DNA of 64,000 bases from Streptomyces sp. NBC_00457. GTDB taxonomy: Bacteria; Actinomycetota; Actinomycetes; Streptomycetales; Streptomycetaceae. The notes beneath the pieces are model-generated. The model saw only the letters and a program-made list of their open reading frames with translations. It was not told the DNA's origin and did no database searches. This document shows, one piece after another, positions 46,062 to 54,219 of the stretch (its first letter is position 1; each line of letters begins with the position of its first letter). Location: positions 2,666,001-2,730,000 of the forward strand of contig NZ_CP107905.1 of the NCBI RefSeq assembly GCF_036014015.1. Reading direction: 5' to 3'. Both the position numbers and the translations under genes were made by a program.

Positions 46062-46240
46062 ACGCCAACGAAACCGAGAGCCACACCCCCGTAGGCGCAA
46101 CGCGGCCCAACCGCCGGAGGCAGGGGTGGTGCTGCGCCGACACGGCACCACCCCCGCCATTGGCCCATTCGAGGCCACGAACGCCGCCCGAAAGCGACGC
46201 GCTGCTCAAGTTTCAGTCAGGGCGCGCGCAGACCACCAGG

Positions 46241-49212: not shown

Positions 49213-49785
49213 ATGCCCAACATCGCCGTGACCACCTGGTCCCTGGAACAGACCGCACCGACCGACCTCCTCCCGGCCCAAGCCCCGCAGGGCGACGTGA
49301 AAGTCGTCCGCGCCGAAGTCCCCTCCCCCGAGTTCAGCCGCTTCCTGTACACATCCGTCGGCGGAGACATCCGCTGGACCGACCTGCTCGGCTGGACGTA
49401 CGCGCAGTGGCAGGAGCACCTGGACCGGCCGGGCGTGGAGACCTGGGTCGCCTACGACCGGGGCACGCCCGCGGGGTATGTGGAGCTGGTCCCGCAGGAC
49501 GACGGGGTCGTCGAGATCGAGCACTTCGGGCTGATCCCGGCCTTCCGCGGACGGCGGATCGGCGGGTATCTGCTGTCGTACGGCACCGCCCGCGCGTGGG
49601 ATCTCGCAGACCGCTGGCCGGGGCGGGCGCCGACGAAGCGGGTGTGGCTGCACACCTGCAGCAAGGACGGCGAGTTCGCGATGGACAACTATCAGCGCCG
49701 GGGCTTCAAGCTCTTCGACACCAAGGTCGAGGAGGAGCCGGCGGTGGCCGCGCCGGGCCCCTGGCCTGGGGCGCACCCCGCCTGA
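49213..49785 (+). CDS. GNAT-family N-acetyltransferase
   Basis: 190 aa. Acetyl-CoA-binding motif A is present as IEHFGLIPAFRGRRIGGYLL (Arg-x-x-Gly-Ile/Arg-Gly), followed by VWLHTCSKDGEFAMDNYQRRGF (motif B). Substrate unknown. The N-terminal part (TTWSLEQTAPTDLLPA) is typical of a subgroup in Streptomyces. Start at 49213 is uncertain because no ribosome binding site is visible. The gene is followed by a very strong hairpin. Confidence 0.86.
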   Translation: MPNIAVTTWSLEQTAPTDLLPAQAPQGDVKVVRAEVPSPEFSRFLYTSVGGDIRWTDLLGWTYAQWQEHLDRPGVETWVAYDRGTPAGYVELVPQDDGVVEIEHFGLIPAFRGRRIGGYLLSYGTARAWDLADRWPGRAPTKRVWLHTCSKDGEFAMDNYQRRGFKLFDTKVEEEPAVAAPGPWPGAHPA

Positions 49786-49847
49786 GGCCTTCGGCGTACC
49801 CTGTCTGACCTGGGCAGACACCGGCTGTTTCGGGCCATGTGACCGAC

Positions 49848-49882
49848 GACACCCTTGTCCCACGATGCGGGACAAGGGTGTC
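49848..49882. terminator. Strong 14-bp hairpin, terminator between GNAT gene and sulfur operon
   Basis: GACACCCTTGTCCC (49848-49861) and GGGACAAGGGTGTC (49869-49882) pair perfectly with a 7-nt loop ACGATGC. It lies 62 nt after the GNAT stop. No U tract follows, as is common in Streptomyces. Confidence 0.75.
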
Positions 49883-49898
49883 CGCATGATGGACGAAG

Positions 49899-49913
49899 CT
49901 GGACTGTGTCCAG
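49899..49913. promoter_or_regulatory. Operator-like dyad CTGGAC-TGT-GTCCAG
   Basis: Perfect 6-bp arms with a 3-nt centre, 23 nt upstream of the leader ORF, probably within or next to the sulfur operon promoter. A sulfur-responsive regulator could bind here; which one is unknown. Confidence 0.5.
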
Positions 49914-49935
49914 ATCGCCGTGACACGCTTCCATC

Positions 49936-50019
49936 ATGTCTGGAACTGGAATTGCCTTGGTGAGTCGGCGGCACGTCGACCTCGGCCGCATGTCCAGCGC
50001 CATCTGTCCGGCCCGCTGA
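49936..50019 (+). CDS. Sulfur-operon leader peptide (putative Cys attenuator)
   Basis: A 27-codon ORF: starts MSGTGIALV, continues SRRHVDLGRM, ends SSAICPAR-stop, 124 nt before the sulfite reductase gene. From memory, short peptides with this SRRHVDLGRMSSAIC core occur ahead of sulfur-assimilation genes in streptomycetes and are annotated as putative leader peptides. The Cys codon (TGT, residue 24) near the end would let translation sense charged tRNA-Cys, with stalling changing the fold of the downstream RNA. An inner GTG start at 49960 (VSRRHVD) is also possible. Confidence 0.75.
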   Translation: MSGTGIALVSRRHVDLGRMSSAICPAR

Positions 50020-50072
50020 GAGCCCAGCCGCGCCGACATCCCCCAGTTCCATCCGATTTCCCGCGCAATGTC

Positions 50073-50103
50073 GCGCACGTATGCCCATGCGCCGTACGCG
50101 CGC
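50073..50103 (+). promoter_or_regulatory. Hairpin between leader ORF and sulfite reductase
   Basis: GCGCACGTA (50073-50081) and TACGCGCGC (50095-50103) pair with one mismatch. It lies between the leader stop and the GAAGGA ribosome binding site, so it could be an attenuator or an alternative structure controlled by ribosome position on the leader. Confidence 0.4.
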
Positions 50104-50143
50104 AGGTCAGAGCCGCTTCCCGCCTGTCCGAAGGACTACCACC

Positions 50144-51841
50144 ATGGCCGCCACCCCGCAGAACCCTGCCGCCGCGACTCCCCGCCGCAAGGTGAGCCGT
50201 CACCGCGGTGAGGGCCAGTGGGCCGCGGGGCACTTCACCCCGCTCAACGGCAACGAGCAGTTCAAGAAGGACGACGACGGTCTCAATGTGCGGACACGCA
50301 TTGAGACGATCTACTCCAAGCGGGGCTTCGACTCGATCGACCCCAACGACCTGCGCGGCCGGATGCGCTGGTGGGGCCTGTACACCCAGCGCAAGCCCGG
50401 GATCGACGGCGGCAAGACCGCGATCCTGGAGCCGGAGGAGCTGGACGACGAGTACTTCATGCTGCGCGTCCGCATCGACGGCGGCCGGCTCACCACCGAG
50501 CAGCTGCGGGTGGTCGGTGAGATCTCGCAGGAGTTCGCGCGGGGCACCGCCGACATCACCGACCGGCAGAACGTCCAGTACCACTGGATCCGGATCGAGG
50601 ACGTGCCGGAGATCTGGGAGCGGCTGGAGGCGGTCGGCCTGTCCACCACCGAGGCCTGCGGTGACACCCCCCGTGTGATCCTCGGCTCGCCCGTCGCCGG
50701 TATCGCCGAGGACGAGATCATCGACGGCACCCCGGCGATCGAGGAGATCCACCGCCGGATCGTCGGCAACAAGGACTTCTCGAACCTGCCCCGCAAGTTC
50801 AAGTCCGCGGTCTCCGGCTCGCCGCTCCTCGACGTGGCGCACGAGATCAACGACGTCGCCTTCGTCGGCGTCAACCACCCCGAGCACGGCCCCGGCTTCG
50901 ACGTCTGGGTCGGCGGCGGGCTGTCCACCAACCCGAAGATCGGTCAGCGCCTCGGCGCCTGGGTCCCGCTCGACGAGGTCCCGGACGTCTACGAGGGCGT
51001 CGTCTCGATCTTCCGCGACTACGGCTACCGGCGGCTGCGCACCCGCGCCCGGCTGAAGTTCCTGCTCGCCGACTGGGGCGTGGAGAAGTTCCGCCAGGTC
51101 CTCGAGGACGAGTACCTCAAGCGCAAGCTCATCGACGGCCCGGCGCCCGCCCAGCCCGTGGAGCGCTGGCGCGACCACGTCGGTGTGCACCGGCAGAAGG
51201 ACGGCCGTTTCTACGTCGGTTTCGCCCCGCGCGTGGGCCGCGTGGACGGCACCACGCTGACGAAGATCGCCGAGCTGGCCGAGGCCCACGGCTCGGGCCG
51301 GGTGCGGACCACCGCCGAGCAGAAGATGCTCGTCCTCGATGTCACCGAGGAGCAGGTCGAGTCGCTGGTCGAGGGCCTGGAGGCGCTGGACCTCACGGTG
51401 AAGCCCTCGCCGTTCCGGCGCGGCACCATGGCCTGCACCGGCATCGAGTACTGCAAGCTCGCCATCGTCGAGACCAAGGCGCGCGGCTCCGCGCTGATCG
51501 ACGAACTGGAGCGCCGTATCCCGGACTTCGACGAGCCGATCACCATCAACATCAACGGCTGCCCGAACGCCTGCGCCCGTATCCAGGTGGCGGACATCGG
51601 TCTCAAGGGGCAGCTGGTCCTCAACGACCAGGGCGAGCAGGTCGAGGGCTTCCAGGTGCACCTGGGCGGCGCGCTCGGTCTGGAGGCGGGCTTCGGCCGC
51701 AAGGTGCGCGGTCTGAAGGTGACGTCGGACGAACTGCCGGACTACGTGGAGCGCGTGCTCAAGCGCTTCGAGGCCGAGCGCGAGGAGGGCGAGCGGTTCG
51801 CCGCCTGGGCCTCGCGGGCCAGTGAGGAGTCCCTCTCATGA
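50144..51841 (+). CDS. Assimilatory sulfite reductase (ferredoxin-type, siroheme)
   Basis: 565 aa. Reduces sulfite to sulfide with six electrons. Two homologous nitrite/sulfite reductase halves: ITDRQNVQYHWIRIEDVPE in the first and RTTAEQKMLVLDV in the second. The four [4Fe-4S]/siroheme ligands are Cys431-x5-Cys437 (ACTGIEYC) and Cys473-x3-Cys477 (NGCPNAC). Siroheme-anion Arg/Lys positions look conserved (RTRARLKFLLADWG). Position ahead of cysH and the ferrochelatase-like gene favours sulfite over nitrite. The ATG at 50144 follows GAAGGA. Its stop overlaps the next ATG by 4 nt. Confidence 0.93.
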   Translation: MAATPQNPAAATPRRKVSRHRGEGQWAAGHFTPLNGNEQFKKDDDGLNVRTRIETIYSKRGFDSIDPNDLRGRMRWWGLYTQRKPGIDGGKTAILEPEELDDEYFMLRVRIDGGRLTTEQLRVVGEISQEFARGTADITDRQNVQYHWIRIEDVPEIWERLEAVGLSTTEACGDTPRVILGSPVAGIAEDEIIDGTPAIEEIHRRIVGNKDFSNLPRKFKSAVSGSPLLDVAHEINDVAFVGVNHPEHGPGFDVWVGGGLSTNPKIGQRLGAWVPLDEVPDVYEGVVSIFRDYGYRRLRTRARLKFLLADWGVEKFRQVLEDEYLKRKLIDGPAPAQPVERWRDHVGVHRQKDGRFYVGFAPRVGRVDGTTLTKIAELAEAHGSGRVRTTAEQKMLVLDVTEEQVESLVEGLEALDLTVKPSPFRRGTMACTGIEYCKLAIVETKARGSALIDELERRIPDFDEPITININGCPNACARIQVADIGLKGQLVLNDQGEQVEGFQVHLGGALGLEAGFGRKVRGLKVTSDELPDYVERVLKRFEAEREEGERFAAWASRASEESLS

Positions 51842-52017
51842 GCGAGCGCGCGGCTCCCTTCTACTGCCCCTACTGCGGCGACGAGGACCTTCGTCCCAGC
51901 GAACAGGGCCACGGCGCGTGGGAATGCGCGGCGTGCAACCGCGCATTCCAGTTGAAGTTCCTCGGGCTGCTTGCCCGGGGGCTTCGGCAGACGGAGTCAG
52001 GGGGAGAGCAGATATGA
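51838..52017 (+). CDS. 59-aa Zn-ribbon-like protein of the sulfur operon
   Basis: A small gene coupled on both sides: its ATG overlaps the sulfite reductase stop (ATGA) and its stop overlaps the cysH start (ATGA). It encodes two CxxC pairs, Cys10-PY-Cys13 and Cys30-AA-Cys33, in the order YCPYCG and WECAACNR, a rubredoxin/Zn-ribbon knuckle arrangement, with a basic/hydrophobic C-terminal helix (FQLKFLGLLARGLRQ). I do not know a demonstrated function. Location suggests a role with the two reductases: electron delivery, Fe-S assembly or docking. Confidence 0.85.
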   Translation: MSERAAPFYCPYCGDEDLRPSEQGHGAWECAACNRAFQLKFLGLLARGLRQTESGGEQI

Positions 52018-52724
52018 ACACCGTTCAGGAAGAGCGCACGACCGACGATCTCAAGGCGCTCGCCGAGCAGGCGGGCCGTGACCTGGAGGACGCCTCGGCG
52101 CTGGAGATTCTCCAGTGGGCCGCCCGTACCTTCGGTAACCGTTTCTGCGTTACCTCTTCCATGGAGGACGCGGTCGTCGCACACCTCGCCTCCCGTGCGC
52201 TGCCCGGTGTTGACGTGGTGTTCCTCGACACCGGCTATCACTTCCCGGAGACGATCGGGACCAGGGACGCGGTGGAGGCGGTGATGGACGTCAACCTCAT
52301 CACCCTGACCCCGCGTCAGACGGTCGCCGAGCAGGACGCGGAGTACGGCCCCAAGCTGCATGACCGCAACCCCGACCTGTGCTGCAAGCTGCGCAAGGTC
52401 CAGCCGCTGGAGGAAGGCCTCAAGGACTACGCGGCCTGGGCGACCGGACTGCGCCGCGACGAGTCCGAGAGCCGGGCCGACACCCCCGTCGTCGGCTGGG
52501 ACGACAAGCGCCAGAAGGTCAAGATCTCGCCGATCGCCCGCTGGAGTCAGGACGACGTCGACGCCTACGTCGCCGAGCACGGCGTCCTGACCAACCCCCT
52601 GCTGATGGACGGCTACTCCTCCATCGGCTGCGCCCCCTGCACCCGTCGTGTCCTCGAGGGCGAGGACGCACGCGCCGGCCGCTGGGCGGGCCGCGCCAAG
52701 ACCGAGTGCGGGCTGCACCTGTGA
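52014..52724 (+). CDS. cysH: Adenylylsulfate (APS) reductase
   Basis: 236 aa. Reduces APS to sulfite using thioredoxin. The Fe-S ligands that distinguish APS reductases from PAPS reductases are all present: Cys123-Cys124 (DLCCKLRK), Cys206 and Cys209 (IGCAPCTRR). The catalytic Cys232 is in TECGLHL at the C-terminus. Substrate-binding segments SSMEDAVVAH, LDTGYHFPET and TGLRRDES are intact. So the operon probably bypasses PAPS, and the adjacent cysC would serve PAPS-dependent sulfation. 4-nt overlaps link it to the Zn-ribbon gene and (via GTGA) to a possible cysC start. Confidence 0.95.
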   Translation: MNTVQEERTTDDLKALAEQAGRDLEDASALEILQWAARTFGNRFCVTSSMEDAVVAHLASRALPGVDVVFLDTGYHFPETIGTRDAVEAVMDVNLITLTPRQTVAEQDAEYGPKLHDRNPDLCCKLRKVQPLEEGLKDYAAWATGLRRDESESRADTPVVGWDDKRQKVKISPIARWSQDDVDAYVAEHGVLTNPLLMDGYSSIGCAPCTRRVLEGEDARAGRWAGRAKTECGLHL

Positions 52725-52750
52725 CCATCAACCCGACCCTGGAGATGCAA

Positions 52751-53287
52751 GTGACGACCGGAGCCACCGTCTGGCTCACGGGTCTGCCGAGCGCCGGCAA
52801 GACCACGATCGCGTACGAGCTGGCCGGCCGGCTGCGCGCGGAGGGCCACCGTGTCGAGGTACTCGACGGCGACGAGATCCGCGAGTTCATCTCGGCCGGC
52901 CTCGGCTTCAGCCGCGAGGACCGGCACACCAATGTGCAGCGCATCGGCTTCCTCGCCGAACTGCTGGCCCGTAACGGCGTCAAGGCCCTGGTCCCGGTGA
53001 TCGCGCCGTACGCCGACAGCCGCGAGGCGGTGCGCAAGCGCCACCAGGAGAGCGGGGCGCCGTACCTGGAAGTGCATGTGGCCACCCCGGTCGACGTGTG
53101 CAGCGAGCGGGATGTGAAGGGTCTGTACGCCAAGCAGGCGGCGGGCGAGCTGACCGGGCTGACGGGGGTCGACGACCCGTACGAGGAGCCCGAGTCGCCC
53201 GACCTGCGGATCGAGTCGCAGAACCAGACCGTGCAGGAGTCCGCGGCCGCGCTCCACGGCCTGCTCACCGAAAGGGGACTGGCATGA
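52751..53287 (+). CDS. cysC: Adenylylsulfate kinase
   Basis: 178 aa. Phosphorylates APS to PAPS. P-loop GLPSAGKTT at ~residue 11, DGDEIREFISAGLGFSREDR (APS binding), and GLYAKQAAGELTGLTGVDDPY (lid region with the typical Lys/Leu-Thr-Gly motif). The GTG at 52751 (VTTGATVWLTG) has GGAG six nt upstream; a GTG at 52721 that overlaps the cysH stop (GTGA) would add ten residues. Its stop overlaps the cysD start by 4 nt. Because CysH is APS-type, the PAPS made here may mainly feed sulfotransferases. Confidence 0.94.
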   Translation: MTTGATVWLTGLPSAGKTTIAYELAGRLRAEGHRVEVLDGDEIREFISAGLGFSREDRHTNVQRIGFLAELLARNGVKALVPVIAPYADSREAVRKRHQESGAPYLEVHVATPVDVCSERDVKGLYAKQAAGELTGLTGVDDPYEEPESPDLRIESQNQTVQESAAALHGLLTERGLA

Positions 53288-54219
53288 CGACCGTGGTCAC
53301 GACGCAGGAGGGTACGGACACCCCGTACGCCCTGTCCCACCTCGACGCCCTGGAGTCGGAGGGCGTGCACATCTTCCGGGAGGTGGCGGGCGAGTTCGAG
53401 CGGCCGGTGATCCTCTTCTCCGGGGGCAAGGACTCCATCGTCATGCTGCATCTGGCGCTGAAGGCGTTCGCCCCCGCGGCGATTCCCTTCTCGCTGCTGC
53501 ACGTGGACACCGGCCACAACTTCCCCGAGGTGCTGGAGTACCGGGACCGTACGGTCGCCCAGCACGGGCTGCGGCTGCATGTCGCGTCCGTGCAGGACTA
53601 CATCGACCGCGGTGTCCTCAAGGAGCGCCCGGACGGGACGCGGAATCCGCTGCAGACGCTGCCGCTGACCGAGAAGATCCAGGCGGAGAAGTTCGACGCC
53701 GTCTTCGGCGGCGGACGCCGCGACGAGGAGAAGGCCCGCGCCAAGGAGCGGGTGTTCTCGCTGCGGGACGAGTTCTCGCAGTGGGACCCCCGCCGCCAGC
53801 GCCCCGAGCTGTGGAACCTCTACAACGGCCGCCACGCACCCGGCGAACACGTCCGCGTCTTCCCGCTGTCCAACTGGACCGAGCTGGACGTGTGGCAGTA
53901 CATCGCCCGCGAGGGCATCGAACTGCCGGAGATCTACTTCGCACACGAGCGTGAGGTGTTCCAGCGGGCCGGAATGTGGCTCACGGCCGGCGAGTGGGGC
54001 GGGCCGCAGGCGACCGAGACGGTGGAGAAGCGGCAGGTCCGCTACCGCACCGTCGGCGACATGTCCTGCACCGGCGCCGTCGACTCCGACGCGACGACGC
54101 TGGAGGCCGTGATCACCGAGATCGCCGCGTCCCGGCTCACCGAGCGCGGCGCCACCCGCGCCGACGACAAGCTCTCCGAGGCCGCGATGGAAGACCGCAA
54201 GCGCGAGGGGTACTTCTAA
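53284..54219 (+). CDS. cysD: Sulfate adenylyltransferase subunit 2
   Basis: 311 aa. With CysN forms ATP sulfurylase, making APS from sulfate and ATP. PP-loop VILFSGGKDSIVMLHLALKA near residue 45, then LLHVDTGHNFPEVLEYRD, VFGGGRRDEEKARAKER and PLSNWTELDVWQYI, all characteristic of CysD. The ATG at 53284 overlaps the cysC stop (ATGA). cysN follows after two nt. Confidence 0.96.
   Translation: MTTVVTTQEGTDTPYALSHLDALESEGVHIFREVAGEFERPVILFSGGKDSIVMLHLALKAFAPAAIPFSLLHVDTGHNFPEVLEYRDRTVAQHGLRLHVASVQDYIDRGVLKERPDGTRNPLQTLPLTEKIQAEKFDAVFGGGRRDEEKARAKERVFSLRDEFSQWDPRRQRPELWNLYNGRHAPGEHVRVFPLSNWTELDVWQYIAREGIELPEIYFAHEREVFQRAGMWLTAGEWGGPQATETVEKRQVRYRTVGDMSCTGAVDSDATTLEAVITEIAASRLTERGATRADDKLSEAAMEDRKREGYF

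Follow-up and report, generated by a model that had tools for sequence, protein, structure and literature searches.

A conserved UGU codon in a putative cysteine attenuator leader upstream of the sulfite reductase operon in Streptomyces

Cysteine attenuation in Actinobacteria has so far been described as stalling in Cys-rich tracts. The mycobacterial poly-Cys leaders are leaderless short ORFs that Canestrari 2020 (10.1111/mmi.14498) reportedly described, and they are said by citing papers to include Ms4527A, the Cys-rich leader of NCBIfam model NF042936. For M. smegmatis, passages of one study describe Cys-rich uORFs with ribosome occupancy (PMC4633059), and passages of three citing papers place Cys genes of this species under translation attenuation (PMC13236596, PMC13091356, PMC13098245). 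Seliverstov 2005 (PMC1262725) predicted Cys leaders before cys genes of Actinobacteria with no obvious terminator and suggested Rho-dependent control; the taxa named there are Mycobacterium, P. acnes, and B. longum, whose leaders contain runs of Cys codons, and the single-Cys Streptomyces leaders are not among them. In Rhodobacterales, the short Cys-codon uORF uORFC-8-2 before cysS is read as ribosome-mediated attenuation in excerpts of PMC8632094. It combines tandem Cys codons, mostly UGC, with an intrinsic terminator, whereas the leader described here has one UGU codon and no terminator in the region scanned (see below).

The locus lies in the window, by which we mean the whole 64,000-nucleotide stretch of DNA analysed; positions are numbered within it. 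The leader ORF has 27 codons, encodes the peptide MSGTGIALVSRRHVDLGRMSSAICPAR, and has a single Cys codon, TGT. Like the leaders of Seliverstov 2005, it stands before cys genes: the ATG (50144) of a nitrite/sulfite reductase-family gene (here sir) is 124 nt 3' of the leader ORF, and this gene is followed by a 59-aa Zn-ribbon-like ORF, cysH, cysC, cysD, and cysN. The features are as follows.

49850..49880, no strand assigned: hairpin with a perfect 12-bp stem and no U-tract, possibly the terminator of the preceding acetyltransferase gene
49900..49905, + strand: TGGACT, probable -35 element; 70 to 72 of the 72 distinct sequences agree at columns -36 to -31
49924..49929, + strand: CACGCT, probable -10 element, 6 nt before the ATG; columns -12 to -7 each conserved in at least 67 of 72
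49936..50019, + strand: leader ORF of the putative attenuator family
49966..49989, + strand: peptide core RRHVDLGR, conserved in its residues with synonymous variation
50005..50007, + strand: Cys codon UGU, 11 residues past the core His
50008..50008, + strand: base 3' of UGU, here C
50103..50116, + strand: conserved element CAGGTCAGAGCCGC between leader and gene
50126..50136, + strand: small hairpin GTCC-GAA-GGAC over the Shine-Dalgarno sequence, with base pairs retained in 55 to 62 of the 63 sequences
50144..51841, + strand: sulfite/nitrite reductase-family gene, the operon's first (PF01077, 2e-61; PF03460, 5e-42)
52014..54219, + strand: cysH, cysC, and cysD by NCBIfam and Pfam matches, starts approximate

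The 59-aa ORF between the reductase gene and cysH (51838-52017) has a Zn-ribbon-like pattern of Cys pairs, and its family matches were all below cut-off. In S. coelicolor, SCO6102-SCO6097 appear to correspond to the operon genes, and passages of PMC4340878 report that NdgR binds upstream of cysI; thus, transcriptional control would coexist with any action of the leader.

The earlier note, made from this DNA alone, had proposed that a leader ORF with one Cys codon precedes the sulfur operon. A search with the reductase protein yielded 581 relatives, and the best 80, all titled Streptomyces, were kept. The leader ORF was present in 79 of these 80 sir loci, and the 80th has just 116 nt upstream. 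The 79 loci and the window gave 80 sequences with 58 distinct ORFs, and alignment across these best-matching loci found the reading frame conserved, with a pN/pS of 0.17 in the ORF frame vs 1.91 and 2.56 in the shifted frames (codons 5-24, 600 random pairs). By these ratios the frame is coding-like and under purifying selection. Ten further genomes, drawn evenly from the genus, all carry the leader ORF with TGT (10/10). One Cys codon is found in 50 of the 58 distinct sir leaders, two in 7, and three in 1. The proposal was borne out. Outside Streptomyces, a motif-bearing leader was upstream of the reductase gene in 33 of 59 regions; the other regions may lack a leader, be cut off, or have been missed by the motif. 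In one genome (G105), an NF042936 profile match that the motif did not catch lies before the reductase gene.

The peptide matched NCBIfam NF042934 (cis_reg_atten, 'putative leader peptide') with 33 bits against a cut-off of 27. It is like other members in core, length, and its place as a short ORF ahead of a sulfur or Cys gene, and no difference was found. By score and gene context, the sir leader is a member of this known family of putative attenuators. The earlier note was right that a Cys leader ORF lies before the sulfur operon. It did not foresee that the leader belongs to a named family, has companions in its own genome, and has a sister model, NF042936, matching before the same gene in other genomes. 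Its own score against NF042936 was 28.2 bits, below the cut-off of 45; this model was over cut-off in 5 of the 148 genomes of a class sample, in all five 102 to 250 nt before a reductase gene.

Nine NF042934 matches at E 0.001 or better were found in the genome of the window, eight of them over cut-off. Some of the leaders precede the sulfite reductase operon, a ThiS-like gene with cysteine synthase, a cysteine dioxygenase gene, and a sulfurtransferase-like gene. The others precede an alkanesulfonate monooxygenase-like gene, an SsuC-like permease gene, two genes of SsuA/NMT1-type binding proteins, and a flavin reductase gene. Eight of the nine thus precede genes with sulfur-linked family matches, several of these assignments being below curated NCBIfam cut-offs, and the ninth precedes the flavin reductase gene, which alone is not a sulfur gene. 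The leader before the Cys-consuming cysteine dioxygenase (L002, G000:C1:3187273) has two or three Cys codons, as have four leaders with similar peptides elsewhere (L130, L154, L228, L232). In a census of the genus, all 101 genomes had NF042934 matches, 2-13 each. The class sample had matches at E 0.001 in 110 of 148 genomes (59 of 81 genera) and over cut-off in 96 of 148. Spread beyond the class was rejected, since the 12 matching genomes of a 198-genome phylum sample (E 1e-4) all belong to the same class.

When the core His is numbered 1, the Cys is residue 12, eleven residues after the His. The residue-12 codon was TGT in all 58 distinct sir leaders, while their 9 other Cys codons were all TGC. 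The genus census comprised 79 loci, 78 with the motif and 72 distinct cores, at least two of which are sir leaders, and TGT was found at residue 12 in 72/72. The 117 loci of the class sample consisted of 26 without the motif, 12 duplicates, and 79 distinct leaders; 73 have Cys at residue 12, spanning 25 family codes and including two Streptomyces loci, and 72 of them use TGT. Merging the census and the class sample and dropping three wrong ORFs left 147 distinct cores, 144 with Cys at residue 12 (one identical to a sir core). Their residue-12 codon was TGT in 143 and TGC in 1 (L282), and the other Cys codons of the same peptides were 36 TGT and 127 TGC (36/163 TGT); these leaders are related sequences, and a Fisher value on such counts is not a true probability. 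As background, TGT made up 5/406 Cys codons of sulfite reductase genes in Streptomyces and 2/93 in others (17/19 loci used), and 11/116 in CDS-like ORFs of the window. In 76 distinct Streptomyces leaders, the codon-choice excess was 4.78 bits at the residue-12 codon vs a maximum of 1.17 elsewhere in positions -7 to 16. The synonymous constraint that the earlier note suggested looking for thus sits exactly at the Cys codon, and its view of this codon as the likely sensing point holds at sequence level.

Poly-Cys leaders of the mycobacterial type, assigned by profile match, also have TGT at residue 12 (L239, L241, L242, L267, L268, L270). They share the core and the position of UGU with the sir leader, and its gene context in the five genomes with NF042936 over cut-off, but they have a Cys tract where the sir leader has one Cys codon. 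From the core onward, 39 of the 144 leaders carry a single Cys codon. The single codon is not peculiar to the sir operon, and across these samples it shows the family's minimal form. The profile used in the protein search is blind to TGT vs TGC but favours Cys at that position, and the fixed UGU is a family property that the protein model NF042934 cannot show. No mention of an invariant UGU was found in the literature searched, though Canestrari 2020 and Barth 2021 may mention one. As far as these searches go, neither the fixed UGU nor its context or distance from the core has been described.

The base after UGU is also biased. In the 144 leaders it was C in 103, T in 28, A in 12, and G in 1, with 41% G expected from the window genes; the sir leaders had C in 57/58 and T in 1/58. 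A pyrimidine 3' of a codon is a weak reading context in suppressor work. Many different residues follow UGU (Arg, Pro, Cys, Leu, Gln, Thr, stop, Met, and others), and a residue preference, such as for Arg, Pro, or Cys, is a possible alternative reason for the scarce G. The length from UGU to the stop ranges from 0 to 11 codons. In the core, codons vary synonymously across leaders (for example, GTC/GTG/GTA/GTT and CGC/CGT/AGG/CGG), suggesting that the residues and not the codons are kept there. The spacing from His to UGU was fixed in 144 of 147 distinct leaders, the exceptions being L166 (TGT at 13), L195, and L291. Both profile and motif preferentially recover peptides with Cys at this position, so the search itself contributes to the fixed spacing, but it does not account for UGU being used instead of UGC. 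L291 (G112) and L195 (G118) are leader-like ORFs with the core and without Cys at position 12. On these comparisons, the UGU codon, its 3' context, and its spacing from the HVDL core look selected, including in the poly-Cys leaders of mycobacterial type.

In arrest peptides of the TnaC and SecM type, nascent residues are conserved at a set distance from the codon where the ribosome pauses. The sir leader shares such a residue-to-codon distance, with the search bias given above, while in sir leaders the identity of the codon also appears to be selected. With UGU in the A site, HVDL would sit some 7-10 residues behind the P-site residue, a region in which arrest motifs are often found. The suggestion of the earlier note that the peptide might help a single codon to sense Cys gains a hint from the conserved core at fixed spacing.

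The genome has 71 tRNA matches, 70 of which were typed by ARAGORN. Both tRNA-Cys genes found have the anticodon GCA, and thus UGU would be read by G-U wobble. The two genes are divergent (G000:C1:6658791-6658865 and 8705735-8705805, both on the - strand). The orphan one of the two was matched in 9 of the 11 genus genomes of the class sample, the own genome included, with 85-100% identity. A second tRNA-Cys dedicated to reading UGU is not required, as the 2 of 11 genomes with no match at E 1e-4 still have leaders. For mycobacteria, citing papers report cleavage of tRNA-Cys by VapC4, with an effect that resembles Cys starvation (PMC13098245, PMC13091356).

The conserved promoter-like elements end 6 nt before the ATG, which we infer to be consistent with a leaderless mRNA. 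A scan with the sigma-70 consensus found no promoter at these elements. In S. lividans, passages of PMC8079986 give TAnnnT as the -10 and nTGACn as the -35 element, a leaderless share of 17% among transcripts, and eight leader peptides, for none of which Cys dependence is described. The sequence TGGACTGTGTCCA (49900-49912) had been taken for an operator dyad, but only its left half is kept: TGGAC (-40 to -27) was found in 72/72 distinct sequences and GTCCA (-35 to -18) in 39/72. An operator dyad over the promoter was thus rejected, and conservation of the left half alone is as expected of a -35 element. Between 49880 and 49905, another conserved copy resembling TGGAC lies upstream of the -35 element together with a GTCC-N7-GGA dyad, and this may be a regulator site. 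The strong hairpin that had been noted upstream is present, but since it lies upstream of the promoter-like elements it is probably absent from the leader mRNA.

Taken together, we consider the sir leader to be a Cys-tRNA-sensing leader ORF in which the nascent peptide and a slow wobble codon make one codon sufficient, with a probability of about three in four. A leaderless mRNA would be translated from its first codon. The ribosome would make the core L-V-x-R-x-H-V-D-L-x-R and then meet one UGU, eleven residues after the His, which would be read by tRNA-Cys(GCA) via G-U wobble in a weak context with a pyrimidine 3'. The nascent core, by then in the upper exit tunnel, may slow the ribosome further. 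When charged tRNA-Cys is short, the ribosome would wait at UGU and, by analogy with the reported mycobacterial Cys-rich leaders, raise expression of sulfite reductase, cysH, cysC, cysD, and cysN. The nine leaders of the genome would act together on sulfur genes. That one of them precedes cysteine dioxygenase argues against simple induction by low Cys.

The same reading may be extended to the whole family, which would then be a nascent-chain-gated single-codon sensor, where the core makes a wobble-read UGU in a weak 3' context the rate-limiting, Cys-tRNA-sensitive step. This extension is tentative and may well prove wrong. Within it, the poly-Cys tracts of the mycobacterial type would be amplifiers of the same UGU core. 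The tRNA-Cys thio-modification is ms2i6A37, and sulfur status could even be read through it, with a greater expected effect at UGU than at UGC.

Ordinary hungry-codon attenuation would require the Cys codon alone, leaving the core as a relic and UGU favoured merely as a slow wobble codon. Decoding alone would explain both UGU and the weak 3' context, and the further Cys codons of the mycobacterial-type leaders fit such a scheme. However, leaders of 25 family codes, standing before unrelated downstream genes, retain the core residues with varying codons, and the spacing from His to UGU hardly changes, although the search itself favours the core. We regard this explanation as unlikely. In a TnaC-type, metabolite-induced arrest, the ribosome with the nascent core would bind free cysteine or another sulfur compound and arrest regardless of tRNA charging. 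A set of conserved residues held at a constant distance from a single codon is a feature of arrest peptides, but this explanation leaves the invariance of the codon, beyond that of the residue, and the near exclusion of G after UGU unexplained, and it appears quite improbable. The fixed UGU codon, the context in which it stands, and its spacing from the core favour sensing at the tRNA level helped by the nascent chain.

In another explanation, UGU is an RNA signal, such as a pairing partner or a nuclease or protein site, unrelated to decoding. UGU followed by a base other than G can be read as a four-base motif, and in sir leaders a pairing of UCUGUCC with the conserved GGUCAGA element would be possible with a single mismatch. 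However, no compensatory changes were seen for this pairing, and the flanking bases beyond the next one vary far more. Complementarity between the UGU region and the spacer was not consistently beyond shuffles in five leader groups, with a mean z of -0.66 in cysO-type (n 28), -0.38 in ssuD (n 4), +0.34 in ssuA-like (n 2), -0.41 in Tat-type (n 6), and -0.27 in sir leaders (n 76); the comparison excluded 36 leaders with no assigned family, along with duplicates and spacers that were too short or too long for the limits set. Nor does pairing of UGUCC with GGACG at the Shine-Dalgarno sequence account for UGU, which is also kept in 28 cysO-type leaders with a different Shine-Dalgarno sequence. A role as RNA signal is thus very unlikely. 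A trans-acting role of the leader peptide as a small protein is hardly credible, for in spite of strong peptide conservation in sir leaders, one genome has many copies that lie in cis to sulfur-linked genes and differ in their N and C termini, and the identity of the codon matters.

The step that would transmit waiting at UGU to the operon was not obvious from RNA folding. A classical transcription attenuator, with a terminator after the leader ORF, was rejected because no intrinsic terminator was found at 49780-50200. The leader RNA fold was not unusually stable (z = +1.14). No Rfam riboswitch or leader was found at the locus, and the sole match over gathering score in the whole window was the Streptomyces sRNA Scr6106 (RF02827, 70.2 bits), elsewhere at 46117-46200 (-). 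When the Cys-codon region was blocked, the mean computed cost of opening the Shine-Dalgarno sequence went from 4.64 to 4.56 kcal/mol in sir leaders (n=79), being lower by 0.5 in 16/79 and higher in 10/79, and from 5.24 to 5.35 kcal/mol in cysO-type leaders, being lower in 2/28 and higher in 4/28. Unmasking of the Shine-Dalgarno sequence by a ribosome at the Cys codon thus had no mean effect computed in the 79 sir and 28 cysO-type leaders, and a reading of the flanking hairpins as an obvious attenuator is not supported. The local hairpin over the Shine-Dalgarno sequence was weakly beyond shuffles, with a mean z of -0.50 in sir leaders, -0.78 in cysO-type leaders, and -0.04 in window genes. Translation attenuation, as reported for M. 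smegmatis, and Rho-dependent control, as in Seliverstov 2005, are candidate transmitting steps.

An experimental test of such leaders in Streptomyces was not found in the literature searched. Nearly all sampled leaders, with single Cys codons as well as poly-Cys tracts, share one synonymous codon at one distance from the core, which reduces the question of what the leader senses to a single base, UGU vs UGC. If the proposed reading is true, nascent-chain effects and wobble decoding would be linked in an amino-acid sensor that apparently controls sulfur metabolism across a large bacterial class.
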